Part shown: piece by piece, positions 31,501 through 55,624 of the stretch
Position numbering within the stretch: position 1 is the first letter of the stretch
Layout: each line of letters begins with the position of its first letter
Origin: a bacterium
GTDB taxonomy: Bacteria > CSSED10-310 > JAJRTK01
Reading direction: 5' to 3'
Length of the DNA: 64,000 nt
Assembly: GCA_024278345.1 (NCBI GenBank)
Contig: JAJRTK010000277.1
Span: 7,287 to 71,286, forward strand
Translations under genes and position numbers: made by a program
The notes under the pieces: generated by a model
Databases searched by the model: none
The model's input: the letters and a program-made list of their open reading frames with translations, nothing else
What the model was told of the DNA's origin: nothing

Positions 31501-32615
31501 TCGCTACTGGCGACCGCCACTTTGAAAACGTCGCGCGCCTTGGGCTGGCCAGCATCATGCAGCGCCGTGGCCAAACAGCGACGGCACTGGCCCTCATCGA
31601 AGACGTACAACAGGGAGATACTGGAGCGGGAAGCCTCCACTCCAAGGCCGAGATTCTCACGGTCCAAGCACGGGTCAAGGCCGATAGTGGACACCTCGAA
31701 ATGGCCCTCCAACTCTTCCAGCAGGCTCAAGAGCTCTATGGCGAATTGGGGAACCGCCGAAACGAAGCGATGCTCCTTTCCGAGATCGCCGAAGTCCGTT
31801 ATCTCCTGGGTGATGTTCGGGGATCCAATGAACCCCAGGAACGTGCGCTACGCCTTCTCAGGGAGGTCGGCGAACGCAGACTCGAAGCCGATGCCCTGCT
31901 CTCCCTTGGCAGACGCCTTCGGGAACAAGGCTTCTTCGAGGCGGCTCTGTCCCTTACTCAGGACGCTCAAAAGATCCACACCCAGATCGACGACTGCTAT
32001 GGAATCGCCCAGTCCACAACTTCATTGGCACGGCTAAGGGCTGATCAATCCCGCCATGACGATGCCAGGAGCCTTGCGCACCAGGCGCTGGAATCCCTCG
32101 AAAATACACTGGACCCCGGCCTACGCTGCACCAATCTTCTGATCCTGGCCGGAGCGGCACTGGCGGACGGCAGGCTCGACGACGCCCGCGAACACTGCGA
32201 GCAAGCCATCAGGAGGCTATCTTCCGGAGAGGCGCCCTTTGTTCTTGGCGAACACCAAGCCCTCCTTGCCCGAGTCGAGCGTCTCTCTGGCACACCGGGA
32301 GAAAAACCACAAAGCTACCTCGAAGCCGCACTTCACACGGCCCGCAGCCGAAGGCGGACACTCCTACAAATTCAGTGTTTCTGTGAGCTCGGCCACCACA
32401 AGCTCGCCCACGGCCAATCCGCAAAAGAAGAGCTCCACATCGCAAAGCGCCTGATCCGGCCCAGGAGAATGCGACGAGAAAGCCGCCTTGCCACCCTGAT
32501 CACAGATCTCGCCAAAGCGGAAACCGCCTTTGAGGATGGTCAAGTGAACCGCCTCTTCCGGGGAGCGATCCTCGATGACTTGCCAGACAACCTTCGAGCA
32601 AGGCTTACGAGATAG
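28539..32615 (+). CDS. Ser/Thr protein kinase with AAA ATPase and TPR domains
   Basis: 1358 residues. Kinase: GHGGMGIVYRA near 18, VALKT, HRDLKPEN near 247, DFG near 267, APEQ near 297. AAA/STAND ATPase: Walker A GAAGMGKTRLA near 441 and Walker B LLVLDDLQWAD near 567. From about 830 to 1320 there are ten or so TPR units (EGEAASWRNLGRISASTG, AYIHGCQGRLPLAQENYAKA). This is the PknK/myxobacterial signalling layout: a cytoplasmic sensor-transducer without a membrane segment. Odd: the kinase is split by a ~120-residue Pro/Ser/Glu-rich insert (about 102-223) between the hinge and the catalytic loop. Confidence 0.92.
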   Translation: MSMTDGIRIGPYEVLGTLGHGGMGIVYRARHGTTGDLVALKTVRIPHARQLQGIRREIHALARIRHPGIVRIVDEGVRDGIPWYAMELLEGTSLRKHAARLTGWQTDKAETHSVKLPTRPELGNRSTKIGSAPATVREPNSAADRNDPTAGHWRLGDAEELGSAPGPGETQSSPHAVTFRPDSSPGQDSTASVSVASDNHVPPETPEQWEPMVPPSRPAAGGALLPILELIQRLCDPLSYFHGEGIVHRDLKPENILIRHDGTPVLVDFGLMSQFAPAGGRERMIVDGLAIGTVAYMAPEQIRGELVDARADLYSLGCILYELVTGRQPFRAKSDSSILWLHLNGDPRRPSELVMDIPTALDDLILRLLAKQPEERLGYADDVAAALERLGACAKPHGTKLRPKAYLYRSRLAGRADDMEVIQGHLSSLQRGSGGLLLIRGAAGMGKTRLAMEAARMAEHRRIPVLTSQCVAVSSDGPHSRGEPLSALRPQLRAIADHCRQMGDEETRRILGPRARILARYEPTIARLPGLGAYDDPPKLFPEAAVIRLYSFLCQTFTELARNAPILLVLDDLQWADELTLGWLRFSLQPRYLASMRTLIIATLRHGPTNESTSPLLHHPEVHKLEPNPLDLHGIRRVIRDMLALPAPPEGLVQFLFQESEGNPFYVAEVLHAAISEGLLSRDEAGAWHMTQEFHHWDDTTDKKLPLPSSLLQLSYRRLEGLPPRELELIEVAALLGRIVDPELLAELTGLDDLDLMSLTRELLRRKLLEETSSSAALRFGHDTLREAAYSRIAVQERRRLHHQAARLLEERIARGREVSLRVVGYHWENAQKTNKARDCYLAGARKAVSKHAHADAESLYRAFLRLSPEHAPRNVVVLNELAEKVLRIQGRATDAMAQLRTALELAREQGDYEGEAASWRNLGRISASTGQLDDARAFYERALGLYRLLGLQTEEGVTLIGLAYIHGCQGRLPLAQENYAKAMELQIATGDRHFENVARLGLASIMQRRGQTATALALIEDVQQGDTGAGSLHSKAEILTVQARVKADSGHLEMALQLFQQAQELYGELGNRRNEAMLLSEIAEVRYLLGDVRGSNEPQERALRLLREVGERRLEADALLSLGRRLREQGFFEAALSLTQDAQKIHTQIDDCYGIAQSTTSLARLRADQSRHDDARSLAHQALESLENTLDPGLRCTNLLILAGAALADGRLDDAREHCEQAIRRLSSGEAPFVLGEHQALLARVERLSGTPGEKPQSYLEAALHTARSRRRTLLQIQCFCELGHHKLAHGQSAKEELHIAKRLIRPRRMRRESRLATLITDLAKAETAFEDGQVNRLFRGAILDDLPDNLRARLTR

Positions 32616-32650
32616 AGCGCTGGTTGGTGCGCCGGCCTTAGAGAAGAACT

Positions 32651-32962
32651 CTACCCGACGTCAGCCGTGGCCTCCATCTCACGCTTGTGCTCCATAAGAT
32701 CGTCCATAAGGCGCTTTGTGTGGTCGTGGGCGATCATGGCGCGAAGGGTCCGGTATTTGCCTTCTGGTGCCCCATAATTCACCAGAATCGCCACCATACG
32801 CTCCCGAGCCTCCATGAAACTATCGTTAAACTGCTCGAAATCCTCGGTATCAAGAAGCCTCTCGATGACATCGTATTCGCCGGCACCGCTTTTTCCAAGC
32901 CCCATCCTGCGAAGGCTTTCGCTGTAGTCGATCTCCAGCTTCTTCGGTGGATTTTCCGTCAT
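32651..32962 (-). CDS. Small hypothetical protein
   Basis: 103 residues from the second ATG (32962), eight bases after GGAG; the first at 32968 is too close to it. Charged, helical (YSESLRRMGLGKSGAG, DVIERLLDTEDFEQFNDSF, LMDDLMEHKREME) with no Cys or membrane segment. No family recognised. It stands alone between the large kinase gene (convergent) and the dispersed repeat. Confidence 0.65.
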   Translation of the reverse strand: MTENPPKKLEIDYSESLRRMGLGKSGAGEYDVIERLLDTEDFEQFNDSFMEARERMVAILVNYGAPEGKYRTLRAMIAHDHTKRLMDDLMEHKREMEATADVG

Positions 32963-33013
32963 ATCCATCTCTCCTCAAGGGGTTCTGACAACAGCGGACT
33001 CCTTGATTTATAC

Positions 33014-33166
33014 GGGACCTATCAGATCTGGTTGACAAGTCCCCGCACGCAAGGAACCCACCGTTCAATTCCGTGAATCCCGTCCGGCCCGCCACCGGCA
33101 AGATGCCGGTGCCACCATGGCGGCGCCGCGGAGTGTAAAGCAACACCGCGGGGATTTGATAGATCC
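33014..33166 (+). repeat. Dispersed MITE-like repeat, copy 2
   Basis: Second copy of the element at 14278-14431, same orientation. Here the terminal inverted repeats extend outward through TATACGGGACCTATCAGATC and the complement of GATTTGATAGATCCCATTTA. The central hairpin is at 33093-33111 and its 19 bases match copy 1 exactly. Confidence 0.78.
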
Positions 33167-33273
33167 CATTTATACACTCTCTTACCGGGGAACAAAAAGC
33201 CCGGTCAGGTGGCACCTCCACCGGCGCACTTCATTTTTGGGGGCGCAAAGGAAGAAAACCCCGATTTCCTTTT

Positions 33274-33289
33274 GGGTTGGCTTCCGCTC
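33274..33289 (+). repeat. Short dispersed repeat core
   Basis: GGGTTGGCTTCCGCTC, a close variant of GGGTTGCGTTCCGCTC found at 55625-55640. Followed by a GC-rich imperfect palindrome (GGCTCGCGGCCGC...). Confidence 0.5.
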
Positions 33290-33434
33290 CCATGGCTCGC
33301 GGCCGCTGCGCGCCAGTCGCCCTGAATCTTCCCAAAAAGTTGCTCTCTCTTGAAGAATAGAGCATGATGGACGGGAAGACATCTGATGGTTCTCCTTAGG
33401 CGAGACCAGTTCGTGAGCCCCTCAACTCAAGGGT

Positions 33435-34307
33435 ATGGATATGCGGATTTCTTTCTTTGCAGCGGTCTTTCTTGGGGCGGCATGCTTACCTGGCCCCGCC
33501 GCGGCACTCGCTCCATCTGAGTTGCCGGGCACGTACCAGGGAATCCAGCGCATCCGAACCGACATACTTCAGAAACTGGGGATTGGCCCCTCCGGGATGG
33601 CGAAGGGAGAGGGAAGGGGACGACCCGGTCTGGTTGGCGATCCACTCCAAGCCACGCTGGTCTTGGCGGCAAACAGCCACTTCACAATTGATTTGGGTGG
33701 ATTTGACGAGGGCAGATGGGTCATCCTCACGCACGAGGAGACCGGCAAGCAATACCTACGCTTCCAGGGGAAAAAAGCGAGTTACGAGGCTCTCTTCCAG
33801 CAAGAATGGGGCCTCTCTTCCAACGAGATAGGGATCTGGAAGGAAGAGGGAGGAGCCTGGTGGATGCTTCAATTCCGGAAGGTGGGCCAGACAGGCTACA
33901 CGCCTCCGGACCTGACGGAATACACCGAAGCGGCCATGGCTCAGGCCTTCGGAAAAGGCCGGCTACAAGCCGATTTTGAAAGCGTAGGCCAGGGTTCAGC
34001 CAGCGGCAGCCGGATCCAAGAAGGCCGCTTTTCCCCGGGCACGCGCTTTTCCGGATCGATGGGCGCCCCTCAGACAAACGAGCAGATCGCCTTGACTTTT
34101 CTGCCCGACGGCCGCTTCACCGTGAGCGCCATGCTTGCTGGCGTCTCCACTAGCGGCATCTACGAAGTCAAGGGAAACGCTCTGTGGCTCCAGCTTGAAG
34201 GTACGGCCAAGGAGGAATGGCAATTGGCGCGGGACAAGCTGTCGGGGCAGTTCCTTATCCGGCAAAAGGGAACGGAAGACTGGCTTGTGGAGGTCTCCCT
34301 GCGGTGA
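33435..34307 (+). CDS. Secreted protein, unknown function
   Basis: 290 residues (or 288 from the ATG at 33441). Signal peptide 1-25 (ISFFAAVFLGAACLPGPAAA). The mature protein has two similar beta-rich halves with strands such as ATLVLAANSHFTIDLGG and IALTFLPDGRFTVSAM, each followed by a WxLQ-type strand, a pattern seen in lipocalin-like or avidin-like barrels; fold call is inference. Its stop overlaps the GTG of the next gene, so it is translated together with two glycosyltransferases. No family name recognised. Confidence 0.7.
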   Translation: MDMRISFFAAVFLGAACLPGPAAALAPSELPGTYQGIQRIRTDILQKLGIGPSGMAKGEGRGRPGLVGDPLQATLVLAANSHFTIDLGGFDEGRWVILTHEETGKQYLRFQGKKASYEALFQQEWGLSSNEIGIWKEEGGAWWMLQFRKVGQTGYTPPDLTEYTEAAMAQAFGKGRLQADFESVGQGSASGSRIQEGRFSPGTRFSGSMGAPQTNEQIALTFLPDGRFTVSAMLAGVSTSGIYEVKGNALWLQLEGTAKEEWQLARDKLSGQFLIRQKGTEDWLVEVSLR

Positions 34308-35293
34308 CCATGGGGCGCATTCCAAAGTTACCTCCCGCCTCACTGAGTGTGGTCATCGTAACCCACAACCACTCCGAGGTCTTGGGGGAGTGTCTTCAAG
34401 CAGCCACCGAGGTCCTGCCCTCCGATACTCAATTCCTTCACATCGATAATGCCTCCACCGACGGAACATGGAAGGTTGCCGGGAGATTCTCCAACGTGAT
34501 CACCATCCGATCCGAGGCAAACGTGGGGTTTTCCGAGGCCATGAATCGGGGGATCGGGGCGACACGCTCGGATCTTGTCCTGACCCTCGGGCCGGACGTC
34601 TATCTCCAACCCGGCTTCCTTGATGCCCTCCTCCCCGCTCTTTCGGAACCTGGAGTTGCCATGGCGGGCCCGATTCTCCTGGACGCTCAAAACTCCTCCG
34701 TCATCGATGATGCGGGTACAATTCTCACTGCCGGCTGGCAGTTCAAGAGCCGAGGCTCGGGAGAGCCCGACGTGGATCAGTACCGGGCTGGCAACGTTCT
34801 GGCCATCTGCGGTGGTTGCTGCCTCCTGCGTCGCCGGGCCGTAAAAGATCTCGCGCTGTCGGGCGAACTGTTCGATTCAGATTTCTTCGCCTACAAAGAG
34901 GATATCGACCTGGGATGGCGCGCCCATCTCTTGGGCTGGACCTGCCGTTTCGAGCCAGCGGCAAGGGCACTTCACGGCCGCAAAGGGGGGAAGGAGTTCT
35001 CGCCGCTGGTCCGGGAGCTCTCCATCCGAAACCGATGGTGCCTCCTCCTCAAAAACGGGGATGCCGTAACTCTGGCTCGGCAACTCCACTCCCTCGTAGG
35101 CCTGGAACTCTACCAAGTCATCAATCACGCGCCCGCCTATGGCATCCGCCGCTTTCTATCGGTCATTCCGTCCATGCTCCGCAAGCGGCGGGCGCTGAGA
35201 CAGCGGCGCCGGCTCACGCCACGGCAAATGCGACAACGATTCAGAGACCTGCGGACCGAAACCCCGTATTGTATAACAAAGGACCCGGTATGA
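34304..35293 (+). CDS. Family 2 glycosyltransferase, first of a pair
   Basis: 329 residues from the GTG at 34304, nine bases after GGAGGT (34289-34294) and overlapping the previous stop. GT-A fold GT2: SVVIVTHNHSEVL, DNASTDGTW, NVGFSEAMNRGI (sugar-nucleotide loop), then the acceptor-side segment AICGGCCLLRRRAV and DFFAYKEDIDLGWRA, which carries the catalytic ED. This pattern is that of WbbL/rhamnosyltransferase-like enzymes for polysaccharide or glycan assembly. A basic amphipathic C-terminus (RRFLSVIPSMLRKRRAL) may touch the membrane. Stop overlaps the next start as ATGA. Confidence 0.88.
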   Translation: MTMGRIPKLPPASLSVVIVTHNHSEVLGECLQAATEVLPSDTQFLHIDNASTDGTWKVAGRFSNVITIRSEANVGFSEAMNRGIGATRSDLVLTLGPDVYLQPGFLDALLPALSEPGVAMAGPILLDAQNSSVIDDAGTILTAGWQFKSRGSGEPDVDQYRAGNVLAICGGCCLLRRRAVKDLALSGELFDSDFFAYKEDIDLGWRAHLLGWTCRFEPAARALHGRKGGKEFSPLVRELSIRNRWCLLLKNGDAVTLARQLHSLVGLELYQVINHAPAYGIRRFLSVIPSMLRKRRALRQRRRLTPRQMRQRFRDLRTETPYCITKDPV

Positions 35294-36417
35294 GCTCGGG
35301 CGCAGTCTCTCCAAAGTCTCAACCAGATCCGGTGACAAAAGTCACTCCGCGAACAAAGGACCCAGGCCCTTGCTTCTCCCTCCTTCTTGTGTGCCATAAC
35401 AGCCACACACTTCTTCCCCGCTGCCTGGAAGCCATGGAAACCGGACTCCGAGCCAGCTCCTCCTCTGCCCAGGTGGAGCTCGTTGCCATCGACAATGCCT
35501 ACTCCGACGGCTCCGTGGATCTCCTGAAAGAGCACTGGCCCGGACAACTACTCCTTCCGGGCAAAAACCTGGGTTTCGGCGGCGCATTGAATCTGGGCAT
35601 CGCCCATACGAAGGCGCCCTGGATCATCGGCATCAACCCCGATATTCTTCTGGCACCGGATTTCTTCCGCCAACTGGCAATAGACGTGGCAGCGCTCGAG
35701 GATTCCCCCGGCATCGGGATGCTGGCTCCAAAACTGCTTCACATCACCCTTGAGTGTTTCTTGACAGGCTCGCCTCCGGAGCAGAAAATCCTCGATTCTA
35801 CCGGGCTCTTCCTTGACCGGCGCCGACAGCCTTACGACCGGGGCCAGGGCGAGCCCGATTCCCGCCAATTCGATACCTCCCTGGAAGTCCTTGGCCCCTG
35901 CGGCGCCTGTGCCATCTACCGCCGTTCGATGCTAGAAAAACTGGCCATCGGCGGAGAGATCTTCGATGAACGCCTCTTCCTCTACTACGAAGACGTGGAT
36001 CTTGCCTGGCGTGGGCGGCGTAGTGGGTTTCGGGCCATCCATGTACCGAAGGTACTGGCTTGGCACATCAGGCAAGGTGCTGACTCGGTTCGCCGATCAG
36101 CGCGGATTCCAGGGCACCGGAAGATCGCCGCCCGAGCCCTGGCAAACCGCTACCTGGTCCTTCTGAAAAACGAGTCTCCGGGCCATTTTCTCCGAGCTCT
36201 CCCGGCCATCCTCTTTTGGGATACGATTCGCTTGGGATACACGCTGTTCCGAACACCGGGTCTCTTCGTCCAGGCCATGGAACACCTGATCCTGGATGCC
36301 CGCGCCACCTGGAAAAAACGGCACGCCTCCCGCGGGGAGACGGGTGTGGATCCCTTCCTCAGGAACTCGCCCCGGAGTCGTACGGCCCCGGAAAAAAGGG
36401 GAAGACCGCGGCAGTAG
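35290..36417 (+). CDS. Family 2 glycosyltransferase, second of a pair
   Basis: 375 residues from the ATG at 35290 overlapping the preceding stop. GT2 motifs in order: FSLLLVCHNSHTLL, DNAYSDGS, NLGFGGALNLGIA, GINPDI, then GPCGACAIYRRSM and FLYYEDVDLAWRGRR, and an HxxxxS-type segment WHIRQGADSVRRS. It is a paralogue of the gene before it, sharing the rhamnosyltransferase-like layout, with a longer basic C-terminal tail (TWKKRHASRGETG). Two such enzymes in one coupled unit suggest successive sugar additions to one glycan. Confidence 0.88.
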   Translation: MSSGAVSPKSQPDPVTKVTPRTKDPGPCFSLLLVCHNSHTLLPRCLEAMETGLRASSSSAQVELVAIDNAYSDGSVDLLKEHWPGQLLLPGKNLGFGGALNLGIAHTKAPWIIGINPDILLAPDFFRQLAIDVAALEDSPGIGMLAPKLLHITLECFLTGSPPEQKILDSTGLFLDRRRQPYDRGQGEPDSRQFDTSLEVLGPCGACAIYRRSMLEKLAIGGEIFDERLFLYYEDVDLAWRGRRSGFRAIHVPKVLAWHIRQGADSVRRSARIPGHRKIAARALANRYLVLLKNESPGHFLRALPAILFWDTIRLGYTLFRTPGLFVQAMEHLILDARATWKKRHASRGETGVDPFLRNSPRSRTAPEKRGRPRQ

Positions 36418-36576
36418 CTCGAGTTTTTTTGCGATGGCATGGATTCGTGGCGAGTTCGTTATTCGTTTCTGGTTTCTGAGCAGTTCAAAAAAACTTGAAC
36501 ATCGAGTTTCAGGGCAAGAAGCCTGGTTCGAGGGCGGCAAAGGTGTGAGTGACGGCGGACGGATTGCCGCCGGCAC

Positions 36577-36593
36577 GATACGGAACTCAACCC
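36577..36593 (-). repeat. Short dispersed repeat core, inverted
   Basis: GATACGGAACTCAACCC, the reverse complement form of the GGGTTG.GTTCCG core, in the 181-base gap after the glycosyltransferases. Confidence 0.45.
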
Positions 36594-36598
36594 GTAAG

Positions 36599-38746
36599 CT
36601 ACCGCTCAATGGTCAAGGAACTCGATCCATCCGCCCTGAACCGACCGGAACTCTCGTCTGGGGACAAGCCCGGCGACTCCTCCTCCTCCAGAACCTCTGC
36701 AAGCCGGCCTAGCAATTCGTCGAAGGTGAAGGGCTTGGGCAAAAAAACCGCTCCGGTCTTCCCCAAAAAGGAGGTCAGCTCCTGGTTGAAGAGATCGCCG
36801 GAAGTCCAGACACACCTCCGCATCAAGCCCGGGGCAACCTCGAAAAACCGCTCGTAAAGCTCGACACCACTAATGTCTGGGAGCCTCCAGTCCACCAGGG
36901 CTGCGGCGAATTCCGAGCCTTGGCAGGCTTCCAAGGCGCAGGTCCCGTCAGCGACACCGGTAACCTCGAAGCCTCGGCGATGCAACAGCGACTGCAGCGC
37001 TTCAAGAATTGACTTCTCGTCATCGACCAACAGGATCTTGCGGCCATGGCCTTTGAGTCTAGCTCCCTCGTCGGCGGCCAATTCCGATTCCCCGCCGCCT
37101 GTTTCCGCGAGCCACTGGGGCGCGGCAGGAAACCTCAAGAGCACCTGTGTTCCGCCGCCAATCTCGCTGGTGACCTCCAGGGTCCCCCCGTGTTCCTCGA
37201 CGATGCCCTTGACGATGGTCATCCCAAGACCGGCCCCCGAACCGATGGCCTTCGTCGTGAAAAAGGGTTCGAAGATATGCTCCTGCACCTCGGGCCTCAT
37301 GCCCGGGCCATTGTCGATGATGAGAAGCTCGCTCCGCTGTTCCTCGGTCCGGCGGGTCACGACGCTCAATACCGGCGGCTCCGTGTTGTGCGCCAGAGCA
37401 GCCACGGCATTGTCGAAAAGGTTGGAAAGAACCTGCTGGAGCTGATGCACGTTCGCCCCTGCAGGCGGCAGACCGGCTTCCAGTTCCGTTTTCAGTTGGA
37501 TGCCGCTGGAAGCCAGGCGGTCCCGCCAGTCGATCAAAAAATGATCCACCAGTTGACTCAGATCGACTGCCTCCTTCTCCACCGAATGCGTTTGCGAAAA
37601 CGAAAGCAGATTCTTGGCAACCCGGACGCACCGCTCCGTTTCTTCCACCACTCGGGCCAGGTTCTGCCTTAGGAATGGGCTGTGCTGGCTCTTGTGCAAG
37701 AGCTTTACGGAACCCAGAATGTTGAGGAGGGGATCGTTGAGCTCTCTGGCTATTCCGGCGACGAACTGACCCAGGGAAGAAAGGCGCTCGCTCTTGAGGA
37801 GGCGATCCCGCGCCTGGCGGAGCTGCCGGAGATGACGCTCTAACTGTTTGTGGAGGTTGTGATTTCTGAGCATCGCGCCCAGGGCGTCCCCAATGAGGCG
37901 ACAGAGCCACAGATCCCGCTCGGTGAAGGGACCCTGGGCGGCAGAGCGCCGGAGCAGCAAAGCCGTATGAACGACGTCGCCCTCAAGAATCGGCACAGCG
38001 AGAACGGATCGAATATCGACTCCCGCCAGGCGGTGGGAAACCGGTCGCATGAGTTGGTCTTGGCCGACATCGCGAACCAAAACAACCTCCTGAGTGTCCA
38101 GGAGGCGCTGGACTTCTGGATACTTCCACATCTCCAGCTGCAATCCACCGGCGGCGGCGGAATCGGTGGAAGAAAGCACGCGAAGCCGTTCGCCTGTATC
38201 GCCGGGCAGGAGCAGAGAAACGCGTTGCGCCTCGAAAAGCATGGAGATCTGATGGAGGATGTTCTGATGGATGTCCTGCCTTGGATCGCTCCTAAGCAAG
38301 GCGCCGGTAAATTCAAGCGTCTGGTGGAGAGAGGCGCGATCGTGTTCCACCTGCTCGTATAGGAGCTTGTGGCGCAGGTGGGATCGGACGCGGGCAAGGA
38401 GCTCCGGGAAAAAGATCGGCTTCGTGATGTAGTCGTCAGCACCATTCTCGAACGCCAGTAACAGGTTCTGCCGATCGGTGCGGGCGGTCAAGATGAGAAC
38501 CGGCACATAGTGGGCGAACGGATGGTGCTTCAGCGTGTAGCAAACCTCAATCCCATCGATATCGGGAAGTCCCAGGTCCAGCAGGACCAAGTCTGGATGC
38601 TCACTGCCAAAAACCGAAAGTCCTTCACTCCCGGAGCGGCAGACCAAGACCTGGTAACTCTGTTCGCTCAGAAACTCGACGACGGTCTGGGCCACTCCCC
38701 GGTCGTCCTCGATCAACAGGATCTTGGGTCGGCGCACCAGGCTCAT
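36599..38746 (-). CDS. REC-GAF-histidine kinase-REC hybrid lacking the phospho-acceptor His, copy 1
   Basis: 715 residues from the ATG at 38746, eight bases after GGAGG. N-terminal receiver (ILLIEDD, DLVLLDLGLPDIDG, ITKP), GAF domain about 150-310, dimerisation helices, HATPase_c with N box NLFDNAVAALAH, G1 DNGPGM, F box FEPFFTTK and G2 GSGAGLGMTIVKG, and a C-terminal receiver (ILLVDDE, VDWRLPDISG, PKPFTFDEL). The H box reads GIARELNDPL, with Arg where GxxHExxxPL needs His. ATP binding looks intact but autophosphorylation on the normal residue is not possible. No membrane segment. Tandem paralogue follows upstream at 38868-40964. Confidence 0.9.
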   Translation of the reverse strand: MSLVRRPKILLIEDDRGVAQTVVEFLSEQSYQVLVCRSGSEGLSVFGSEHPDLVLLDLGLPDIDGIEVCYTLKHHPFAHYVPVLILTARTDRQNLLLAFENGADDYITKPIFFPELLARVRSHLRHKLLYEQVEHDRASLHQTLEFTGALLRSDPRQDIHQNILHQISMLFEAQRVSLLLPGDTGERLRVLSSTDSAAAGGLQLEMWKYPEVQRLLDTQEVVLVRDVGQDQLMRPVSHRLAGVDIRSVLAVPILEGDVVHTALLLRRSAAQGPFTERDLWLCRLIGDALGAMLRNHNLHKQLERHLRQLRQARDRLLKSERLSSLGQFVAGIARELNDPLLNILGSVKLLHKSQHSPFLRQNLARVVEETERCVRVAKNLLSFSQTHSVEKEAVDLSQLVDHFLIDWRDRLASSGIQLKTELEAGLPPAGANVHQLQQVLSNLFDNAVAALAHNTEPPVLSVVTRRTEEQRSELLIIDNGPGMRPEVQEHIFEPFFTTKAIGSGAGLGMTIVKGIVEEHGGTLEVTSEIGGGTQVLLRFPAAPQWLAETGGGESELAADEGARLKGHGRKILLVDDEKSILEALQSLLHRRGFEVTGVADGTCALEACQGSEFAAALVDWRLPDISGVELYERFFEVAPGLMRRCVWTSGDLFNQELTSFLGKTGAVFLPKPFTFDELLGRLAEVLEEEESPGLSPDESSGRFRADGSSSLTIER

Positions 38747-38867
38747 TCTTTGTTCCTCCCTAGTCCCAGGTTCTTTTGGCACTGCCCCGCTGAGGGCGGT
38801 TCATTCGGCTTCGTCACTCCCATAGTCTCCCCGCGGCGCCCAAGGTCGGGAAGCCGTCCGGGAACCG

Positions 38868-40964
38868 TCACGGCACCTCTGTGACCCGGGGTCTGAGAGT
38901 CTCTCCTATCTGTGCCAACAACTGATCGAAGGTGAATGGCTTTGCCAAGAACCTCTCCTCGATCCGCTGCATGGCCAAGCGCTGGCGAGCGGCATAGGGA
39001 TCTCCGGAACTGAAGATGAAGCGGCCTTCAATCTCAGGATCAACGTCCACCAACCGCTGGTAAAGCTGCTCTCCACTCATATCTGGCAATTTCATGTCGA
39101 TGAACAGGACATCAAACCGTTTTTCCCGGCAAAGCTCCATCGCTTGACGCCCCGTGGCCGCTCGCCCAACCTCGAACTGGCAATGCTTGAGAAAAGTGGA
39201 AAGAGCTTCCAGGATTGAACGCTCATCATCAACGAGCAAGACAGACTTGCTCTTCGTATCATCGGCGGCCACTCCATGACCTAGAGAAGAAGAAAAGCCA
39301 ACGGCCTCTTCCGGCAGCTTCTCCACTGACTCCCGCTCCACGGCTTGTGCCAACGGAAAGTGTATGGTCACCGTTGTGCCGCGGCCCGGGCTGCTCGAAA
39401 GGTCGATCTTGCCTCCATGGTCTTCGACGATCCCCTTGACAATGGTCAGGCCAAGCCCTGTACCGCTCCCCATGGTGCTCGTCGTAAAATAGGCCTCGAA
39501 AACTCGGCTCCGAACCTCTTCCCGCATTCCAGGCCCATTGTCGTGAACCAATAGTTCGATCTCAGCCTCCCGCACCCGTGCGGAAATACTCAGACACGGC
39601 GGTTCGGCCGCGTGGGCCAATGCCGCGGCGGCATTGTCAAAAAGGTTCCCGAAAACCTGCTGCAACTGGTGCTTGCTTGCCATGATCGGTGGAAGCCGAG
39701 GCTCCAGGGCAATCCGAACCTGGATTCCCGCCATGTCAAACCTGCGCGACCGATCCTGCAACGCCAACTGTAATACGTCGGCAAGGTCCACGCGGTTCTT
39801 CTCCGCCGAATAGGTCTCAGAAAAGGTAAGCAGATTCCGCACCATCCCGGAACAATGCTCGGCCTGCTGGAGAACGCGATTCAACCCCTGCCGCACATAG
39901 GGGTTCTGCTGCCCACGCATCAACAGGCGGCTGTAGCTGGCAATGCTCGTGAGAGGCGCACTGAGCTCCTTGGCGATTCCAGCCACGAACTGTCCCAGCG
40001 AAGAAAGCCGTTCGCTCTTGAGCAATCGATCCCTGGTCTCCGTGAGCTGCTGAACCTTTCGCTCGAACTCAAGATGCAGGCTCGTATTGCGCAGCAAGGC
40101 CCCCAGCGCGTGTCCGATTAGCTGGCAAAGCCAGAGATCCCGCTCCTCGAACGGGGGCTGGTCCAGTGACCGGCGCAACAGGAGAGTCGCATGGAGCTCA
40201 TCCCCCTCAAAAATAGGAATGACCAAGACCGACCGAAGATCCACCTCGGCAAGGTGCTCCGCCACAGCCGACATCAGCCGATTGCTCCGGATGTCCCGAA
40301 CCATCACGACTTCTCGCGTCTCGATGGAATGTTGGACCTCGGGATACCTCCACATTTCAAGCTGCAACCCGCCCACAGTGGCTGAATCCGTCGATGACAA
40401 GACCCTGAGAAGCTCCCCGCCGCTTTCCGGGAGCAAAAGCGAAACTCGCCGGGAATTGAAGAGCACCCGGAGCTGTTCCAAGATGCTCTGGTAAACGTCG
40501 TCCTGGGGCCCGGATCGAAGAATCGTACCGGTGAAGTTCAAGATCTGCTGGAGCGTCGTGCGATCTTGATCCATCCGCTCGCAAAGGTGCTTCACACGAA
40601 GATGCGCTCGGACCCTGGCGAGCAACTCCTCCAAGAACACCGGCTTGATGATGTAGTCATCCGCGCCGGCCTCAAAAGCGTCGATGAGGTCGCCCCGCCG
40701 CTCACTACCGGTCAAAATCAGAACCGGAACATACTTCGCGAACGGGTGATGCTTCATGGAATAGCAAACATCCAGTCCCGGCATGTCCGGTAATCCAAGG
40801 TCCAGAAGCACAAGATCGGGGACATTGTCCGAAAACTGCCGTAGCGCCTCCTCCCCGGTGCCACAGGCCTGAGACTCGTACCATCGCTCAGAAGCAAGGT
40901 ACTCCGTCACAACCCCCACAACGTGAGGGTCGTCCTCTACAAGGAGAATCCTAGATTTGCGCAT
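38868..40964 (-). CDS. REC-GAF-histidine kinase-REC hybrid lacking the phospho-acceptor His, copy 2
   Basis: 698 residues from the ATG at 40964; an in-frame start at 41006 lacks a site. Same order of domains as copy 1 and strongly similar to it along the length (for example VLSSTDSATVGGLQLEMW against VLSSTDSAAAGGLQLEMW). Receiver 1 has VEDD, LLDLGLPDMPG and IIKP; GAF; HATPase with NLFDNAAAALAH, DNGPGM, FEAYFTTS and GSGTGLGLTIVKG; receiver 2 has LVDDE, FIDMKLPDMSG and AKPFTFDQL. The H box reads GIAKELSAPL: Lys in place of His. Likely transcribed first, with copy 1 following after 121 bases. Confidence 0.9.
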   Translation of the reverse strand: MRKSRILLVEDDPHVVGVVTEYLASERWYESQACGTGEEALRQFSDNVPDLVLLDLGLPDMPGLDVCYSMKHHPFAKYVPVLILTGSERRGDLIDAFEAGADDYIIKPVFLEELLARVRAHLRVKHLCERMDQDRTTLQQILNFTGTILRSGPQDDVYQSILEQLRVLFNSRRVSLLLPESGGELLRVLSSTDSATVGGLQLEMWRYPEVQHSIETREVVMVRDIRSNRLMSAVAEHLAEVDLRSVLVIPIFEGDELHATLLLRRSLDQPPFEERDLWLCQLIGHALGALLRNTSLHLEFERKVQQLTETRDRLLKSERLSSLGQFVAGIAKELSAPLTSIASYSRLLMRGQQNPYVRQGLNRVLQQAEHCSGMVRNLLTFSETYSAEKNRVDLADVLQLALQDRSRRFDMAGIQVRIALEPRLPPIMASKHQLQQVFGNLFDNAAAALAHAAEPPCLSISARVREAEIELLVHDNGPGMREEVRSRVFEAYFTTSTMGSGTGLGLTIVKGIVEDHGGKIDLSSSPGRGTTVTIHFPLAQAVERESVEKLPEEAVGFSSSLGHGVAADDTKSKSVLLVDDERSILEALSTFLKHCQFEVGRAATGRQAMELCREKRFDVLFIDMKLPDMSGEQLYQRLVDVDPEIEGRFIFSSGDPYAARQRLAMQRIEERFLAKPFTFDQLLAQIGETLRPRVTEVP

Positions 40965-41100
40965 TCCGGAAGTTCCCTGGGAAGCCAAATGACCGAGCCG
41001 ATCCACTCCGTCCCCCCAATGGACCCGATTGCCACGCCTACCAAGTTAGTGCCTTTTTCCAAAAAATGCCAACCTCTTATCTCAGGCAGTTCTCCATGGT

Positions 41101-42102
41101 CTAGTGCTCAACCCATTCCAGGCGATAGGGACCACCTGCCACGGTGAAGCTCCCTCGCAACTTCCAACCCACAAGATCGATGACCATCACCGAATCGTCC
41201 ACCGGGGAAACCACCCATGCCGCCTCTCCCCAAGGATGAAGCAGGATGTCCGTCACACCACGCCCCACCGCAAGACGATCCGCAACCTCCTTCGTATCCG
41301 TATCGATCTTCACCAAGTCTCTGATCCCGTCGGTCTCCAGGAGCAGATAGGGTGATCGCGGCAGATGGCGCAAGCTCCGTACGCGACCCTCAACCTTGAT
41401 GACTCCTTCCAAGTCACCTGCTTCCGGATCAAAAAAACTGACGCCCCCCGGACTCGCCTTCACCAACGCCACCACTCCCGACTGAGGATCCAACGCCAGC
41501 TCAGTCACGCCCGACACCGCCTCCACCTCCTCCAAGGCACGATTCTCCAAATCGAGCAAGAACAGCTCCCCGCTTTCACGCAAAACAAGAACCTGCCTAG
41601 TCGATGGATGAAACAGTAAATCCCTCATTCCGAAACCAACGGAATAGGATCTACGCACCAACCCGCTGATCGCCGACAAGACCAAGATGCGCCCAGATTC
41701 CACGCATCCAACCAGAACGCTCTTTTTCCCAAAGGCGCGAAGAAGACCGGGCTTCCGGCAACCGTTCAAAACCACCGACCGTTCAGCACTCCCCGTCAGC
41801 GCCCCGAACCACGTCAATACGCCCCCCATCCTCCCTTTGAGAGCCGTGCTCGAGACCAATAGATAGAGTGTCTCCGGAACCCGGAGCAGATCGAGCGGCT
41901 TTCCCACAAGCTCCGTCTCCCGCAGGATCTTGCCTTCCGTAGACTCAAAAAAACGGACCTTTCCATCCTTGCGGCAAAGGGCGGCAAGAGTGTCGGCCCC
42001 GCTCTCTAAAACGGATACGCCCAACAAAAACAGTACCATAGAGCAAAGAAGCCACCAGAATTTTCGGCCATGAGACCTTCCGTCAACCGCCATTCGGATC
42101 AT
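41101..42102 (-). CDS. YVTN/lactonase-type beta-propeller protein, membrane-anchored
   Basis: 333 residues from the ATG at 42102 (AGGGG four bases before). One hydrophobic signal anchor (FWWLLCSMVLFLLGVSVL) near residues 14-32. The remainder repeats short blades of the YVTN kind (GRILVLSAISG, TRQVLVLRESGELFLLDLEN, SGVVALVKASPGGVSFFDPE, DSVMVIDLVGWKLRGSF). Probably periplasmic ligand- or partner-binding. It precedes the hybrid kinases by about 130 bases on the same strand, so it may belong to the same signalling unit; that is positional inference. Confidence 0.75.
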   Translation of the reverse strand: MIRMAVDGRSHGRKFWWLLCSMVLFLLGVSVLESGADTLAALCRKDGKVRFFESTEGKILRETELVGKPLDLLRVPETLYLLVSSTALKGRMGGVLTWFGALTGSAERSVVLNGCRKPGLLRAFGKKSVLVGCVESGRILVLSAISGLVRRSYSVGFGMRDLLFHPSTRQVLVLRESGELFLLDLENRALEEVEAVSGVTELALDPQSGVVALVKASPGGVSFFDPEAGDLEGVIKVEGRVRSLRHLPRSPYLLLETDGIRDLVKIDTDTKEVADRLAVGRGVTDILLHPWGEAAWVVSPVDDSVMVIDLVGWKLRGSFTVAGGPYRLEWVEH

Positions 42103-42124
42103 GAGGCCCCTCATCCTTCTCTTT

Positions 42125-42193: not shown

Positions 42194-43600
42194 CTAGCCC
42201 CCTCCCGCAAGACGCTTCCCCAGATCAAAGGCGTTCTCCACACAATTATTCATCGCCACCCCATGGTACGAGTTCCCCGACAGGTGCAGCCCTGGCCACC
42301 GGTCGGCCAGCGCCTCCACCTTCGCTACCCGATCCAGGTGGCCGAGAGTGTACTGTGGAATCGCCCGCGGGTAACGGTAAATCCGCACCAGCTCGGGGTC
42401 TCCCTCGAGCCCGAGGACCGGCCGGAGCAACTCCAAGGTCTTTGAAAGCAAGATCTCTTCCCCCTCCTCCACAATCCGACCCTGCCTCCGGCCACCCAAC
42501 ATTGCCCGGAGAAGAACCCGGCCCTCCGGCGCACGGCCAGGGTAGATGGAAGAGCTGAAAAGGCATCCCAAAATCGGCAAACCCTCTCGCCCCGGAACCA
42601 GGAACCCGAACCCCTCAGGCGTCCGCGTCACCTTTTTCGCCTCGAAGCCCAGGCAAACCACGGCGACGGGGGCGTAAGGAAAATCCTCCAGCCCGCGGGC
42701 CAGTTCTTCCGAAAGCCCCGACAACATCGGTGCTGCTCGATATGATGGCACGGTGACCACGACCTGATCCACCGGAATCCCGCCGGCCGAAGTCCGCACC
42801 TCAAGACCATTCTCCGCCTCGACAATCGCGGCCACGGGTGTACCAAGCTCAATTTTTTCAAGTCCGATCCTCTGAACCAAAGCGTCAATGAGCTCGCCCA
42901 GCCCGCCGCGCAGGGAGGTTAAACTACCGCTCGGGCCGGTCTGGATAGCCGGGCCATCCCTGTCGCCGCCCTCGCTCTTCCGCTTCCGCCGCTTCTCTCG
43001 CGCCAGAGCGATGGCCCCACGGATCAAGCTCCCGTGATTCGTCTCCAACCGCCGAAGCCGTGGGAAAGCCGCATCTACGGAAAGCTCGCCGGGATCGCCG
43101 CCATAGATCCCCGTCACCATGGCGTCCACAAGGGTCGTCGCCAAACCCCGGCCCAACCGCCGCGAGGCGAACTCGAGCACAGTCTCTTCCCCCTTCCCCC
43201 GCGGGATAAAAGGCTCCAATGCCACCCGAAGACGAGACCAAAACGGCAGGATCGGACTCCGAAGAAAACTGGGAGGAGAGATCGGCACCGGTTCCAATCG
43301 CCCCGAAAGCAACAAAAACCGGTTCTTCGAAGCTGCCTCACTGGCCCCCACAAGCCGAGCGCCCACCCCCAACATCGAACAAAGCTCCAATGTCGGGGGC
43401 GAATTGTTCAAAAAACCGTTGGGACCCCATTCGCAAAGGTAGCCATCCACTGAATCCGTCCGGATCTTGCCGCCTGGCCGGGTATCGGCTTCCAAGATGA
43501 CCAGATCCGCCTCGGTTCCTCGCTTCCGGCTCTCCTCCAACAAGGCGAAAGCCGTCGTCAGTCCGCTGATCCCGGCGCCGATGATCGCGGTTTTTCCCAT
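42194..43600 (-). CDS. hemG: Protoporphyrinogen oxidase, oxygen-dependent (HemG/HemY type)
   Basis: 468 residues from the ATG at 43600; a GTG at 43621 has no ribosome-binding site. FAD-binding Rossmann fold GAGISGLTTAFAL, then the second GG motif ADTRPGGKIRT, the substrate-domain segment EWGPNGFLNNSP and C-terminal FAD contact LHLSGNSYHGVAMNNCVEN. Oxidises protoporphyrinogen IX to protoporphyrin IX with O2, the penultimate step of heme synthesis. An internal basic insert (REKRRKRKSEGGDRDG) near residue 200 is unusual. Located directly after hemE in the same direction, 27 bases apart. Confidence 0.93.
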   Translation of the reverse strand: MGKTAIIGAGISGLTTAFALLEESRKRGTEADLVILEADTRPGGKIRTDSVDGYLCEWGPNGFLNNSPPTLELCSMLGVGARLVGASEAASKNRFLLLSGRLEPVPISPPSFLRSPILPFWSRLRVALEPFIPRGKGEETVLEFASRRLGRGLATTLVDAMVTGIYGGDPGELSVDAAFPRLRRLETNHGSLIRGAIALAREKRRKRKSEGGDRDGPAIQTGPSGSLTSLRGGLGELIDALVQRIGLEKIELGTPVAAIVEAENGLEVRTSAGGIPVDQVVVTVPSYRAAPMLSGLSEELARGLEDFPYAPVAVVCLGFEAKKVTRTPEGFGFLVPGREGLPILGCLFSSSIYPGRAPEGRVLLRAMLGGRRQGRIVEEGEEILLSKTLELLRPVLGLEGDPELVRIYRYPRAIPQYTLGHLDRVAKVEALADRWPGLHLSGNSYHGVAMNNCVENAFDLGKRLAGGG

Positions 43601-43627
43601 CTTCACACTCTCGCTTCCCACAAGAGG

Positions 43628-44653
43628 TCAAACAGCCCAGGGGGGCCGCCAATTCACAACCTCGTCCACCATCCAGCCCACTGCCTCTACGGGAGTTCCG
43701 GGCAGAACGCCGTGACCAAGGTTGAAGATGTGGCCACGACCGCCCCCGACATCGAGAATCGCTCGGGTTTTTGAGCGAACATGCGATTCCGGCCCAAAGA
43801 GAGTCACCGGATGAAGATTCCCCTGAACCGAAGAACCGCCCAAGCGCTGCCAGCACTCATCCACGGGAAGCTGCCAATCAATACCCACGACGTCGGCGCC
43901 GGCCTCCGAGACATCCTCCAAGAATGCCGAGCACCCCTTGGGAAAGTAGATCACGGGAACTCGCCCGGAGATTCTCTGGACGATCTCCCGGACGAAAGGT
44001 AGGCAATAGCGGCGAAACTCCTCCCGTCCAAGGTTCCCGGCCCAAGTATCAAAAATTTGCACGGCTTGGGCACCCGCGTCCACTTGCGCCTCCAAATAAG
44101 CGGCAACCGTCTGGGTCAGCTTTTCAAGGAGTAAGAGTCCCGCGGATTCGTCATGGGCCAGGAAGCGGCCAAGCCAGGTAAACTGCTTGGCTCCGCTGCC
44201 CTCCACAAGATAGGTGGCCAAGGTATATGGGGCGCCGGCAAACCCGATGAGAGGAACCCCCCGGCTCTCAAGTTCCCGACGCAGGAGACGCACCCCCTCC
44301 AAGACGTAGGGCACGGATTCCCGAGGATCGGGAACCCTCAATGCCTCCACTTGCTTTCGGCTGCGAATGGGATCACCGATAACCGGTCCAGGATTGAAAG
44401 TCAGATCGATCCCCATGGCCTCCAGCGGGACCATGATATCGGAAAAGAGGATCGCCGCGTCGAATCGGTACCGTTCGATGGGCTGAAGGGTCACCTCGCA
44501 GAGGAGATCGGGGCTCTTACAGAGCTCCAAGAAACTGACCTTCTCCCGCACCGCGCGATATTCAGGAAGGTATCGCCCAGCCTGGCGCATCATCCAGACG
44601 GGGGGTCTGTCCACGGACTCGCCTCGGCAAGCCTGCAAAAAACGTTGGTTCAC
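43628..44653 (-). CDS. hemE: Uroporphyrinogen decarboxylase
   Basis: 341 residues from the GTG at 44653, five bases after GGAG; this removes an N-terminal extension that would overlap the nuclease gene, and gives the normal family length. Signature WMMRQAGRYLPEYR near residue 17, catalytic Asp in FSDIMVPLEAMG, and AGNLGREEFRRYCLPF. Converts uroporphyrinogen III to coproporphyrinogen III. Followed on the same strand by hemG; no coproporphyrinogen oxidase or ferrochelatase is seen in the window. Confidence 0.97.
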   Translation of the reverse strand: MNQRFLQACRGESVDRPPVWMMRQAGRYLPEYRAVREKVSFLELCKSPDLLCEVTLQPIERYRFDAAILFSDIMVPLEAMGIDLTFNPGPVIGDPIRSRKQVEALRVPDPRESVPYVLEGVRLLRRELESRGVPLIGFAGAPYTLATYLVEGSGAKQFTWLGRFLAHDESAGLLLLEKLTQTVAAYLEAQVDAGAQAVQIFDTWAGNLGREEFRRYCLPFVREIVQRISGRVPVIYFPKGCSAFLEDVSEAGADVVGIDWQLPVDECWQRLGGSSVQGNLHPVTLFGPESHVRSKTRAILDVGGGRGHIFNLGHGVLPGTPVEAVGWMVDEVVNWRPPWAV

Positions 44654-44691
44654 GTTGTCTCCAATTGGGTGTTCGTTTCCCGGTGGCGGGA

Positions 44692-47600
44692 TCAAGCCTC
44701 CACCCGGTGCCGGCGCCAAATAATCCGGCCAGCTCCAACCAGCAAGAGTAGCAAGGCCAAGAGAAGGAGAGCTTCCGACATCGCTCCCACGCTGGGGAGC
44801 AGGTCCGTCGCCTCCGTCCAGGTTCCATTGCCGCTATCAGGGTCGTCCGTGACCGCCGTGACGACAAAGCTCGTGCTCAAAGGAGTCACGGCCGTTGAAG
44901 AAACCGTTGTCTCCACCATGACGATAGCGGTCTGCAGGGAAGCCAGCGAACCCAAATCGCAGGTCAAAGTCCCGCTATTGTCGGTGCAGCCCAGGGCGGA
45001 GACCAAGGTCAATCCTCCATCCAAAGTCACTTCCAAAGTGACTCCCGAGGCATCTGACGGCCCACCATTGGTCACCGTGGCCGTGTAATTTAGTTTTCCA
45101 CCCACAGCGGCCGGATCCAGATCGTCGGCGACGCTCACCGAAAGATCGGCCGATGTCGTGACAACGATGCTCCCGGTTCCACTGTCATTCGCCGAGTTTT
45201 GGTCTCTGGTCGATGATGTCACCGTCCAAATCATGTCGGCCAAAGAGCTGGCGGAGGAATCGAGAAGGGCATCCAGATCCACCGAAATCGCACTGCCAGA
45301 CGGGATGTCGCCAAGATCGCAGGTGACCAGCCCTCCGCTTTCCGAGCAGCTCGCCGAAGTCGCCCGCACGGGCGCAACGAAGGTCAGGCCGTTGGGCAAC
45401 GCCCCTGATAAGCTGCCACCACTGGCTGTCCGTGGTCCGTTGTTCGTCACCGTGACCGTATAGGTCACCGCCGAACCCGCAATGGCAGGACTGGTTGTCG
45501 AAACGGAAGTCACCTCCAGATCGGCATACTCTTCCCCTTGCACGAAGAGCACCAGAGGATCGTGATCGGATGCACGCACGGGAGTGTTTGGATCGGCGGC
45601 GGCGCTCCCCTCATCGGGAGCGTCGGCGTTGACCCGACCGAACTCGATGCCCGTGACGGTTTGGGCCATGCTTTCGGAAGTTAAAATGTGATCCAGCACC
45701 TGCGCGGACCCGTTGGCCTGCCACGAATAGCGCTCTTCCAGAGCAAGATTCAGCACCTGATTGGTCATGTCCGGAGTGACCTCATCCGTCACGGGGATCA
45801 CCGAATCATTGGGATCCGTCAGACCCCTTATCTGCCCCACGACATCGTAATAGCCGTCGGAGAACTCGAAGGCATTGAAATCCCCCAGCACAATGATGGG
45901 CATGTTCGGATCAGCAGTCTGGAGGGACTGGATATACTGGGAAAGCCTCGTCGCCTGCTCCAATCGCTTCTGCCGTGCAAACTCGCTGGAGTCCACGCCG
46001 ATGAACGACCGCAAATGCACGGCGATGGCCGTGAACGAGAAACTCGTGCCAACTCCGTCCACCTGACCTTCCAACACCAAGGGCACGCGGTCGTAGAGAT
46101 CGTATGTCTGGCCATCGAGATCGAAGGTGTCGCTCAGGCCGAACTGGGAAAGGACGATGTTCGACACCTTCCCCTTGGTCAAGAAGCCCACCTGCTGAGA
46201 ACCGGCGTTGGGGCTATCCATCAGATGAGAAGTGTAGATCGTGTTGGGATCTTCGGTGGCAATCTGGGCCACCAGAGCATCGAGAGTCGCCTGATCCTGG
46301 ACCTCCTCGATGGCCAAAATATCGGGTGCCTTGAGAACGTCGAGCACAAGCTTCGAAAACTTCTTCAGCCGGTCGGTCTCCGTGTTCCGAAGGAACTCCG
46401 TGTTCAACGTCGCCAGCGTGAATTCCCCGGGCAGCCGATCGCGGACGGCCCGGTAGGTAAAGGTGTTGGAAACGGAAAGGCTCTTGGGCTGAATCTGGTA
46501 GTCGCCAAAAACGAAGCCCAGCGGTCCCTCGGCCGTAAAGGTATCTCCGGCGGACATCTCCACCATGGGCAGGCCAAGAGCGTTGGGATCGAGTTCGAAC
46601 AGCTCGGGGTTGCCATCCCAAACCGGGATTCCCGTGAGGCCCGGATACTCGATCCCCGCCTCTCTCAGCGCCCGGGCACGGCCGGGGGCCACCGCCATGA
46701 AGTCTCCGTACCGATTGCTGGCTCCACTGACGATACCGTCGGTCACCTGGACAAGCATCCCCTCGAACCTCTCCAGAGGCGGCGGATCCGCTGGACTCGA
46801 CGCCGGCGTCGTGCCGTCGAAAACCACTGCCGCGGGAAGCGGATTGCCGGACGAAACCACCGTGACAACAGGAGATCGGGTGATCTCGGTGAAGCTGTAA
46901 TACTCGTCCACAAGTCCTGTTACATCCACCTCGTCGCCCACGGTCACCGATGGGGCGACCTCCGTGAAAACGAAGAGCCCTTCGGAGGTCGCCGGATCGC
47001 CATCATCCGTGCCATCGGGCGTCTGGATGTAGAATCCATCGGCGGCCACGGCTGTCACAAGGTTTCCTTTCAAAACCACGGCCCGGTCGATGTACGGTGA
47101 CTTGCTGGCGGCCCCTTGGACCTCATAAATCTTCAGCTCCGGCAGTGCCACGCAGCCGGAGAAACTCGTGCCATCGATGCGGACGCCCGGGGAGAAACGG
47201 CTCCCACCGGAACCCGTCGCCTGAGAATGCTGAACGTACGGCGGACTCCCAAGAATATCGGGATCGAGAGTGATGGAGTCGCCATTGGCCGCTTCCGCTC
47301 CATAGGTGACATCCACCACGTTGCTCGTGGGATCGTTGGGATCGCGGTAGACTTGAAGGGTGTCGCCAGCGTCATCAAGCCCCAGCCCGCCGGTGGAAGC
47401 CGTCTGGACAAGGGCGCCTCCAAACGCATTTGGATCGGGAGTTCCACCGCCGAAAACCAGGACGGAGCACTGGTCGGGAAGAAAGCTCCCCGGAGGAAAA
47501 ACATGGCGCGTGGCCGCGGCATCCTGCACGACCCACCCGTCTAGGTTGATGTCCACTCCGGAGTCGTTCACGAGTTCCAGGAACTCGTCTTGAGCGGCAT

Positions 47601-50600: not shown

Positions 50601-50814
50601 CGAACTCGTTGATGGTGACCGCCGCTCCCGCCCCTGCTTCAAAGAAGATTAGCACCACCATCCAGGCAAGAACCGGGAGCCATCCTCCAACTGAAGGGAA
50701 ACCGACCCGACTCGCCGCTCTTTCCATGGGCGGCAAGGTCGAGGCCAGAGCTCCGTTCGGCAGACCAGAAAACGGGGCGTCGAACTCAGAACAGCGGCTT
50801 CCGGCGGGATTCAT
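44692..50814 (-). CDS. Giant secreted ExeM-like nuclease with lamin-tail, DUF11 and exosortase-type tail
   Basis: 2040 residues from the ATG at 50814 (GGAGAGGA upstream). Signal peptide near 30-65. About five lamin-tail-type domains (NEFVPKGTEWVELHN, LNEIDVFPDPNAVDQVELYN and relatives), arranged partly as two ~430-residue duplicated modules (about 348-780 and 786-1225). OB-fold near 1230-1345. Endonuclease/exonuclease/phosphatase domain about 1460-1755: LATLNTEFL, AIEEVQD, VLGDFNAFEF, SDHDPLVL. Two DUF11 repeats to about 1990, then LPSVGAMS, a Leu-rich membrane stretch and WRRHR: an exosortase-type sorting tail. Extracellular or surface DNA degradation inferred from the ExeM likeness. Confidence 0.9.
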   Translation of the reverse strand: MNPAGSRCSEFDAPFSGLPNGALASTLPPMERAASRVGFPSVGGWLPVLAWMVVLIFFEAGAGAAVTINEFVPKGTEWVELHNSVGSGVISVAGWYLDDAACGVGVSTIPGGTNIADGGFFVVTAGGAGDNFALSNVGDFLVLCDNTGAEVDRVAYGTKGGAPVAPVGSSAARTADGLDTGVDAVDWNLDATPTQGVANDVGGTALGTSAILNEIDVFPDPNAVDQVELYNPGSVAVDLTGWVLSDGDELSPLAGGTVAPGGWLVLVSGVDFSGTMNFTGSDVAYLMDGSGVRVDQLGWSGGTETGCFSRLPDGAGPNDGYDWSSSGGGVTLVDQPCTMGGTNGGPTLLLSEIVVTPTGGEFIEIHNPTPVTISLDDLYLTDATYSTGGNYYYNIVTGSNAGGGDFGDFHARFPAGSSIAPGEYQTVSLAGSDAFLTQWGVSPTYELYEDGAADSIPDMREASAGSINNQGSLTNSGEVVILYRWNGVSDLVRDIDYAVWGDKVEAVDKTGVSVDGPDLDVTGTAYAADTAISSQDIVSTGAHPFGSSWHRIDLNEGTETKVAGNGVTGHDETSENLSATWRAAAVTPGQPAPFQWVVNEIYSDPITDPNSGDLIDPNAVLGDANGDGTRDGVADEFIELVNNTGAAADLSGWGLATGQGLVHTFPSGTVVPDGCALVLFGGGTPVGDFGKTTVQVASGGLGLVDGGDTISLLPNPADPNNPDVQVTFGAEALKGQSITLDPDITGSMPYVPHTTAGAGPPGVQFSPGTQSDGVPFAGCPAPERTLQLSELVVSQDSGQFVEIHNPTTATIDLTDVYLTDATYSSGGDYYYNIVTADCTGGGNVAACLAGGGSFRDFHAKFPSGATIASGDFQTVAVQGALDFQAVYGSAPTYELYGTDPNVPDMLEAFSGSIDLPWEQDGSLDSSGLSGGEVMVLYQWDGQSDLVVDLDYAVWGDKAEAVDKTGISVDGPDGDTAATSYLADTVTASQDVISTSAHSAGKSFQRIDPWEGNEVPYGGNGLRGNDETSEDLSVTWDSMIPTPGRRPPMAVLNEIHSAPDPNAGDANGDGTVDAAQDEFLELVNDSGVDINLDGWVVQDAAATRHVFPPGSFLPDQCSVLVFGGGTPDPNAFGGALVQTASTGGLGLDDAGDTLQVYRDPNDPTSNVVDVTYGAEAANGDSITLDPDILGSPPYVQHSQATGSGGSRFSPGVRIDGTSFSGCVALPELKIYEVQGAASKSPYIDRAVVLKGNLVTAVAADGFYIQTPDGTDDGDPATSEGLFVFTEVAPSVTVGDEVDVTGLVDEYYSFTEITRSPVVTVVSSGNPLPAAVVFDGTTPASSPADPPPLERFEGMLVQVTDGIVSGASNRYGDFMAVAPGRARALREAGIEYPGLTGIPVWDGNPELFELDPNALGLPMVEMSAGDTFTAEGPLGFVFGDYQIQPKSLSVSNTFTYRAVRDRLPGEFTLATLNTEFLRNTETDRLKKFSKLVLDVLKAPDILAIEEVQDQATLDALVAQIATEDPNTIYTSHLMDSPNAGSQQVGFLTKGKVSNIVLSQFGLSDTFDLDGQTYDLYDRVPLVLEGQVDGVGTSFSFTAIAVHLRSFIGVDSSEFARQKRLEQATRLSQYIQSLQTADPNMPIIVLGDFNAFEFSDGYYDVVGQIRGLTDPNDSVIPVTDEVTPDMTNQVLNLALEERYSWQANGSAQVLDHILTSESMAQTVTGIEFGRVNADAPDEGSAAADPNTPVRASDHDPLVLFVQGEEYADLEVTSVSTTSPAIAGSAVTYTVTVTNNGPRTASGGSLSGALPNGLTFVAPVRATSASCSESGGLVTCDLGDIPSGSAISVDLDALLDSSASSLADMIWTVTSSTRDQNSANDSGTGSIVVTTSADLSVSVADDLDPAAVGGKLNYTATVTNGGPSDASGVTLEVTLDGGLTLVSALGCTDNSGTLTCDLGSLASLQTAIVMVETTVSSTAVTPLSTSFVVTAVTDDPDSGNGTWTEATDLLPSVGAMSEALLLLALLLLLVGAGRIIWRRHRVEA

Positions 50815-55544: not shown

Positions 55545-55624
55545 CCGGCCATGCTCTTTGGCCAACAGGCACCCCCTTTTTTTTCCTCCAACCCCATGAT
55601 CGTCAACAATGGCGATGACATTCC

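Follow-up and report, generated by a model that had tools for sequence, protein, structure and literature searches.

The window analysed here, a stretch of 64,000 nucleotides to which all positions refer unless a contig is named, carries two tandem genes, A and B, whose products share the domain organization given in Table 1. In both proteins, the two receivers (REC), the GAF, the HisKA and the HATPase_c domains score above their respective Pfam cut-offs; HisKA itself reaches 36.9 bits in A and 38.6 bits in B, for a cut-off of 26.9. A recognisable HisKA-HATPase transmitter is thus present in A and B and, for the latter, is also apparent in the modelled fold. Both reading frames are intact, and the two proteins share 53% identity across 697 aligned columns. 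For gene A, an ATG at 38746 (about 715 aa), preceded by GGGAGGA, is a likelier start than the GTG. As for gene B, position 40964, previously taken as its boundary, is indeed an alternative internal ATG, but the longest open frame extends further, up to a GTG at 41006.

Table 1. Positions of the A/B gene pair, of its altered DHp sites and of the genes upstream
Feature	Position	Strand	Remarks
Gene A	36599..38782	minus	REC-GAF-HisKA(Arg346)-HATPase_c-REC pseudo-histidine kinase; 727 aa from GTG
Asp350 of A, H+4 (phosphatase) position	37733..37735	minus	Asn/Thr expected; A/B profile alignment
AGA, Arg346 of A, phospho-acceptor His site	37745..37747	minus	His in 67/67 relatives
Gene B	38868..41006	minus	REC-GAF-HisKA(Lys346)-HATPase_c-REC pseudo-histidine kinase; 712 aa from GTG
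Ala350 of B, H+4 (phosphatase) position	39957..39959	minus	Asn/Thr expected; A/B profile alignment
AAG, Lys346 of B, phospho-acceptor His site	39969..39971	minus	His in 67/67 relatives
337-aa protein, beta-propeller-like by eye	41101..42114	minus	Upstream of B, gap of about 95 bp; no Pfam/NCBIfam family
Protoporphyrinogen oxidase	42194..43621	minus	TIGR00562
Uroporphyrinogen decarboxylase (HemE)	43628..44719	minus	Upstream neighbour

Downstream of the pair lie convergent glycosyltransferase genes, and no response regulator adjoins it. The minus strand also encodes, at 44692-50832, a protein of 2046 aa that combines six lamin-tail domains with an endonuclease/exonuclease/phosphatase domain and DUF11 repeats. 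A haem link through hemE and the protoporphyrinogen oxidase gene is unsupported, no kinase being evident near the homologous oxidase in two phylum mates, where the flanks are short and long frames were judged by eye. Similarly, the resemblance between the haem pseudokinase ChrS and the haem-gene neighbours of A and B is a coincidence of theme only. An ordinary PhoB/PhoR-like pair, composed of a response regulator and a histidine kinase with a normal His, is encoded at 53662-55565 (minus strand); these proteins are possible, though unlinked, partners of A and B.

The initial annotation reported that both transmitters carry a basic residue, Arg (AGA) or Lys (AAG), in place of the phospho-acceptor His, and this was borne out in both ORFs. 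The H-box sequence is GIARELNDPL in A and GIAKELSAPL in B, and the A/B profile alignment confirms that the His lost from these two proteins is kept in all 67 relatives. Since AGA and AAG differ from the His codons CAT/CAC at three and two positions, respectively, a single-base error is insufficient to explain either of them; sequencing error, already discounted in the annotation, can be rejected. A nearby His acting as an alternative acceptor, the objection that the annotation raised against its own proposal, is likewise rejected, as none lies within 16 residues of site 346 in A or B (the nearest are His317 and His363 in A, His311 and His384 in B). Neither protein therefore possesses a His able to feed its C-terminal receiver in cis, as a hybrid kinase would.

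A second lesion is located at H+4. Relatives carry Asn or Thr at this position in 65 of 67 cases, with one Ser and one Gln; the residue typical of a transmitter phosphatase is missing from both A (Asp) and B (Ala). The role of the H+4 residue in the phosphatase activity of HisKA transmitters has been shown in CrdS of Myxococcus, where N375A and N375D are both without significant phosphatase activity and the kinase activity of N375D is likewise not measurable (PMC3510030). Because the acceptor His is absent and the H+4 changes are those tested in CrdS, the DHp residues of kinase chemistry and of phosphatase chemistry are, as judged from the sequence, both gone in A and B. This disfavours one of the functions put forward initially, that of a phosphatase of receivers. 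Such a phosphatase could still act on the receivers of the other copy or of other proteins, with ATP binding as a control: the His is dispensable for HisKA phosphatase activity, as CrdS H371A retains much of this activity and still shortens the half-life of CrdA~P to 2.6 min (PMC3510030), and A and B keep both the CA domain and the Glu directly after the acceptor site (Glu+1). With precisely the two H+4 residues that inactivate CrdS, at a position occupied by Asn or Thr in nearly all relatives, we find this improbable. It is still harder to believe that A and B are unusual kinases, in which the Arg/Lys or another residue takes phosphate from ATP. The retained ATP boxes and Glu+1, together with the basic nitrogen side chains of both replacements, would suit such a chemistry, but DivL, with a Tyr at the same site, turned out to have no kinase activity (PMC4211667), and Asp at +4, as found in A, abolished that of CrdS as well (PMC3510030).

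Outside these two positions, the profile alignment confirmed in both proteins the claim that the HATPase boxes and receivers are intact. The N box (N454, N458), G1 box (D490, G492, G494), F box (F504, F508) and G2 box (G514-G520) are conserved in A and B. The active site of the N-terminal receiver, consisting of an acidic pair, Asp, Thr/Ser and Lys, is complete in both copies (D26, D27, D69, T99, K121), as is that of the C-terminal receiver (D587, D588, D631, S661 and K683 in A, with the same set in B). With two complete receivers in each protein, a pair using phosphate from another kinase would fit best among the three functions initially suggested. The remaining one, an ATP-dependent scaffold or dominant inhibitor, supposes that the DHp and CA domains pair mutually or with those of an active kinase, and that nucleotide, rather than receiver phosphorylation, sets the state. 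The four complete ATP boxes are in line with this, as are the inhibition of GacS autophosphorylation by RetS via the catalytic cores (PMC5992135) and the heterodimerisation of the ChrS pseudokinase with HrrS (PMC9491836). Nevertheless, the conservation of all four receiver active sites would stay unexplained, and as a full account the scaffold seems rather unlikely, while being compatible with the use of phosphate from another kinase.

In the AlphaFold2 model of B, which has a mean pLDDT of 86.6, the REC, GAF, DHp and CA domains adopt normal folds that are reliable individually, the mutual arrangement of the domains being unreliable at a pTM of 0.46. Long helices connect REC and GAF to DHp: the N-terminal receiver is followed by a helix (125-164), the GAF domain and a 78-residue helix (288-365) that enters DHp helix 1, on which residue 346 is located. 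DHp helix 2, the CA domain, a disordered linker and the C-terminal receiver come next. B thus combines a complete N-terminal receiver with a helical connection to the sensor and DHp, as seen in LvrB. Solved structures matching the model are those of ZraS, HK853, CckA, LvrB and DivL; furthermore, the chain of 6oap, named 'dual sensor histidine kinase', aligns by sequence to residues 18-311 of B, corresponding to REC and GAF. A REC-GAF module like that of A and B also precedes a normal His-bearing kinase in another of the sampled genomes (L103, genome G124), which indicates that this input module occurs beyond the host genome.

Phylogenetic analysis of 65 kinase cores groups A and B as sisters (support 100/100) on a stem of length 0.96, nested within a loosely supported (93/89) group of hybrid kinases, the remaining members of which keep the His. 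Since the two copies share a long stem in His-bearing surroundings, a single loss of the His before duplication, followed by an Arg/Lys exchange, would be the simplest history compared with two losses. Comparison of the two genes gives a saturated dS (about 2.1) and a dN of about 0.45, which means that both have remained under purifying selection since the duplication. The identity of the two proteins amounts to 60% in REC1, 63% in GAF, 61% in CA, 49% in DHp and 41.5% in REC2. No orthologue of A or B was found in 7 phylum mates (the phylum sample comprises eight genomes including the host), in 386 sampled genomes or in the genome-contig scan; the best matches outside the phylum, among the 386 sampled genomes, show about 30-36% identity.

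The lack of orthologues in these sets and the lower conservation of REC2 relative to REC1 are what would be expected of non-functional remnants, drifting after the kinase function was gone. Two full-length frames, a saturated dS with low dN, and the retention of all other catalytic residues in both copies despite 47% divergence speak against such a decay, which we consider most improbable. The intact ATP boxes could be taken as the mark of a recent loss; this is argued against by the same 47% divergence of the copies, provided that the loss predates the duplication. Collectively, the real loss of the His and the purifying selection acting on both copies make the retained, altered function proposed in the initial annotation likely.

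HisKA domains devoid of the His are rare, accounting for 0.9% (722/76,471) of those in a published census (PMC12632262). The host genome yielded 49 alignable HisKA domains; the His is present in 45 and missing from four, namely A (Arg), B (Lys) and single proteins on contigs C150 (Gln) and C395 (Glu). The proportion of 4/49 exceeds the 0.9% expectation with a binomial P of about 0.001, or 0.01 if A and B are taken as a single loss, both values being descriptive because the genome was selected on account of the finding itself. The C150 protein (5000-8000, minus strand), a HisKA membrane protein of 481 aa, carries Gln at the His site (QVSQQLRAP) and Ala at +4, and its ATP boxes look degenerate by eye; this pseudo-kinase has decayed further than A and B. 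The C395 protein (32000-38000, plus strand) is long and TPR-GAF-PAS-HisKA-HATPase-like; Glu occupies its His site (KVAERIRNY), the Asn at +4 is retained and the ATP boxes are apparently intact.

Searching 386 genomes with strict DNA patterns of the Arg/Lys H box gave 11 matches beyond A and B, from patterns that overlook many HisKA domains (with a His codon, the same strict pattern matches 105/145 genomes). Read by eye, ten of these matches are non-kinases and one, from genome G231, is a 530-aa GAF-HisKA-HATPase ORF with the H box GMAREISNPL, carrying Arg for His and a retained Asn at +4. The replacement of His by Arg has thus arisen independently elsewhere, there with the phosphatase residue surviving. 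Pseudo-histidine kinases are a recognised class of proteins, uncommon and with few studied members. A and B belong to this known class; what is new is their tandem arrangement together with the additional loss of the phosphatase residue.

From the DHp losses and the other sites kept, which are read directly from the sequence, we infer a function involving trans-phosphorylation, ATP dependence and a partner protein. We favour, with moderate confidence, the view that A and B are retained pseudo-histidine kinases whose receivers are phosphorylated by another kinase and which pass a conformational signal to a partner. According to this scheme, A and B would neither autophosphorylate nor remove phosphate from receivers. 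A different histidine kinase of the same cell would phosphorylate the N-terminal receiver, as an input, and/or the C-terminal one, which could serve as input or as phosphate sink. Receiver phosphorylation, a GAF ligand and bound nucleotide would then reshape the coiled-coil/DHp dimer, and the latter could act, by binding, on a partner, either a kinase or a response regulator. As a tentative extension, A and B may constitute tandem, possibly heterodimeric signal integrators, that is, an ATP-gated reader of the phosphate on four built-in receivers, in which both DHp losses and the basic residue were selected. With kinase and phosphatase residues gone, ATP and receiver sites kept, and all this in two copies, the pair provides a clean natural test case, in which the idea of a non-catalytic, ATP-gated switch driven by phosphate can be tested directly.

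Several characterized systems resemble A and B in part, and four of them, DivL, RetS, EspA/EspC and LvrB, offer precedents for the mechanism favoured here. DivL of Caulobacter, a His-less transmitter that senses a phosphorylated regulator (PDB 4q20, PMC4211667), has the same HisKA-type fold with a replaced acceptor His and matches B both in sequence (E 2e-19) and in fold (Z 21.8). It is devoid of kinase and phosphatase activity, and both absences are predicted for A and B. On the other hand, DivL has a Tyr at the acceptor site, relies on PAS sensors, binds ATP weakly and has its regulator, DivK, as a separate protein, whereas A and B have Arg/Lys, intact ATP boxes and receivers at both ends, and form a tandem pair. 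RetS of Pseudomonas can be likened to A and B as a hybrid sensor with receivers and no kinase activity, whose REC2 accepts phosphate from GacS and whose core inhibits its partner; the pattern of loss is the opposite, since RetS keeps the His and an HExxT phosphatase motif while its HATPase is degenerate (PMC5992135).

The nearest named kinase-REC core is found in the EspA/EspC pair of Myxococcus (models NF052573/NF052574), described as two hybrid kinases with receivers linked by interprotein phosphorylation, EspA phosphorylating the receiver of EspC (PMC4320627). For the kinase-REC cores of both A and B, the top NCBIfam hit is EspC, yet far under the equivalog cut-off (225 and 210 bits for 1200), and the EspA scores are similarly low (147 and 186 bits for 1400). 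The match of A to EspC (E 2e-66) spans only the kinase and the C-terminal receiver and, in contrast to what is predicted for A and B, EspA is described as an active kinase. The N-terminal receiver has a counterpart in LvrB (8vc9), in which a phosphorylated REC controls the kinase through the REC helix (PMC13269768). LvrB shares with A and B an N-terminal REC as input and a long helix to DHp, but it is an active kinase, and such phosphorylation is not expected of A and B. PPHK (6oap, 6oaq, 6ob8) is described as another REC-controlled kinase, and its 6oap chain is the one matching the REC and GAF of B. Finally, A and B fall within the 0.9% of HisKA domains lacking the His (PMC12632262), from which they differ as a tandem pair with the phosphatase residue lost too; taken together with this census, they argue against such proteins being retained simply as phosphatases.
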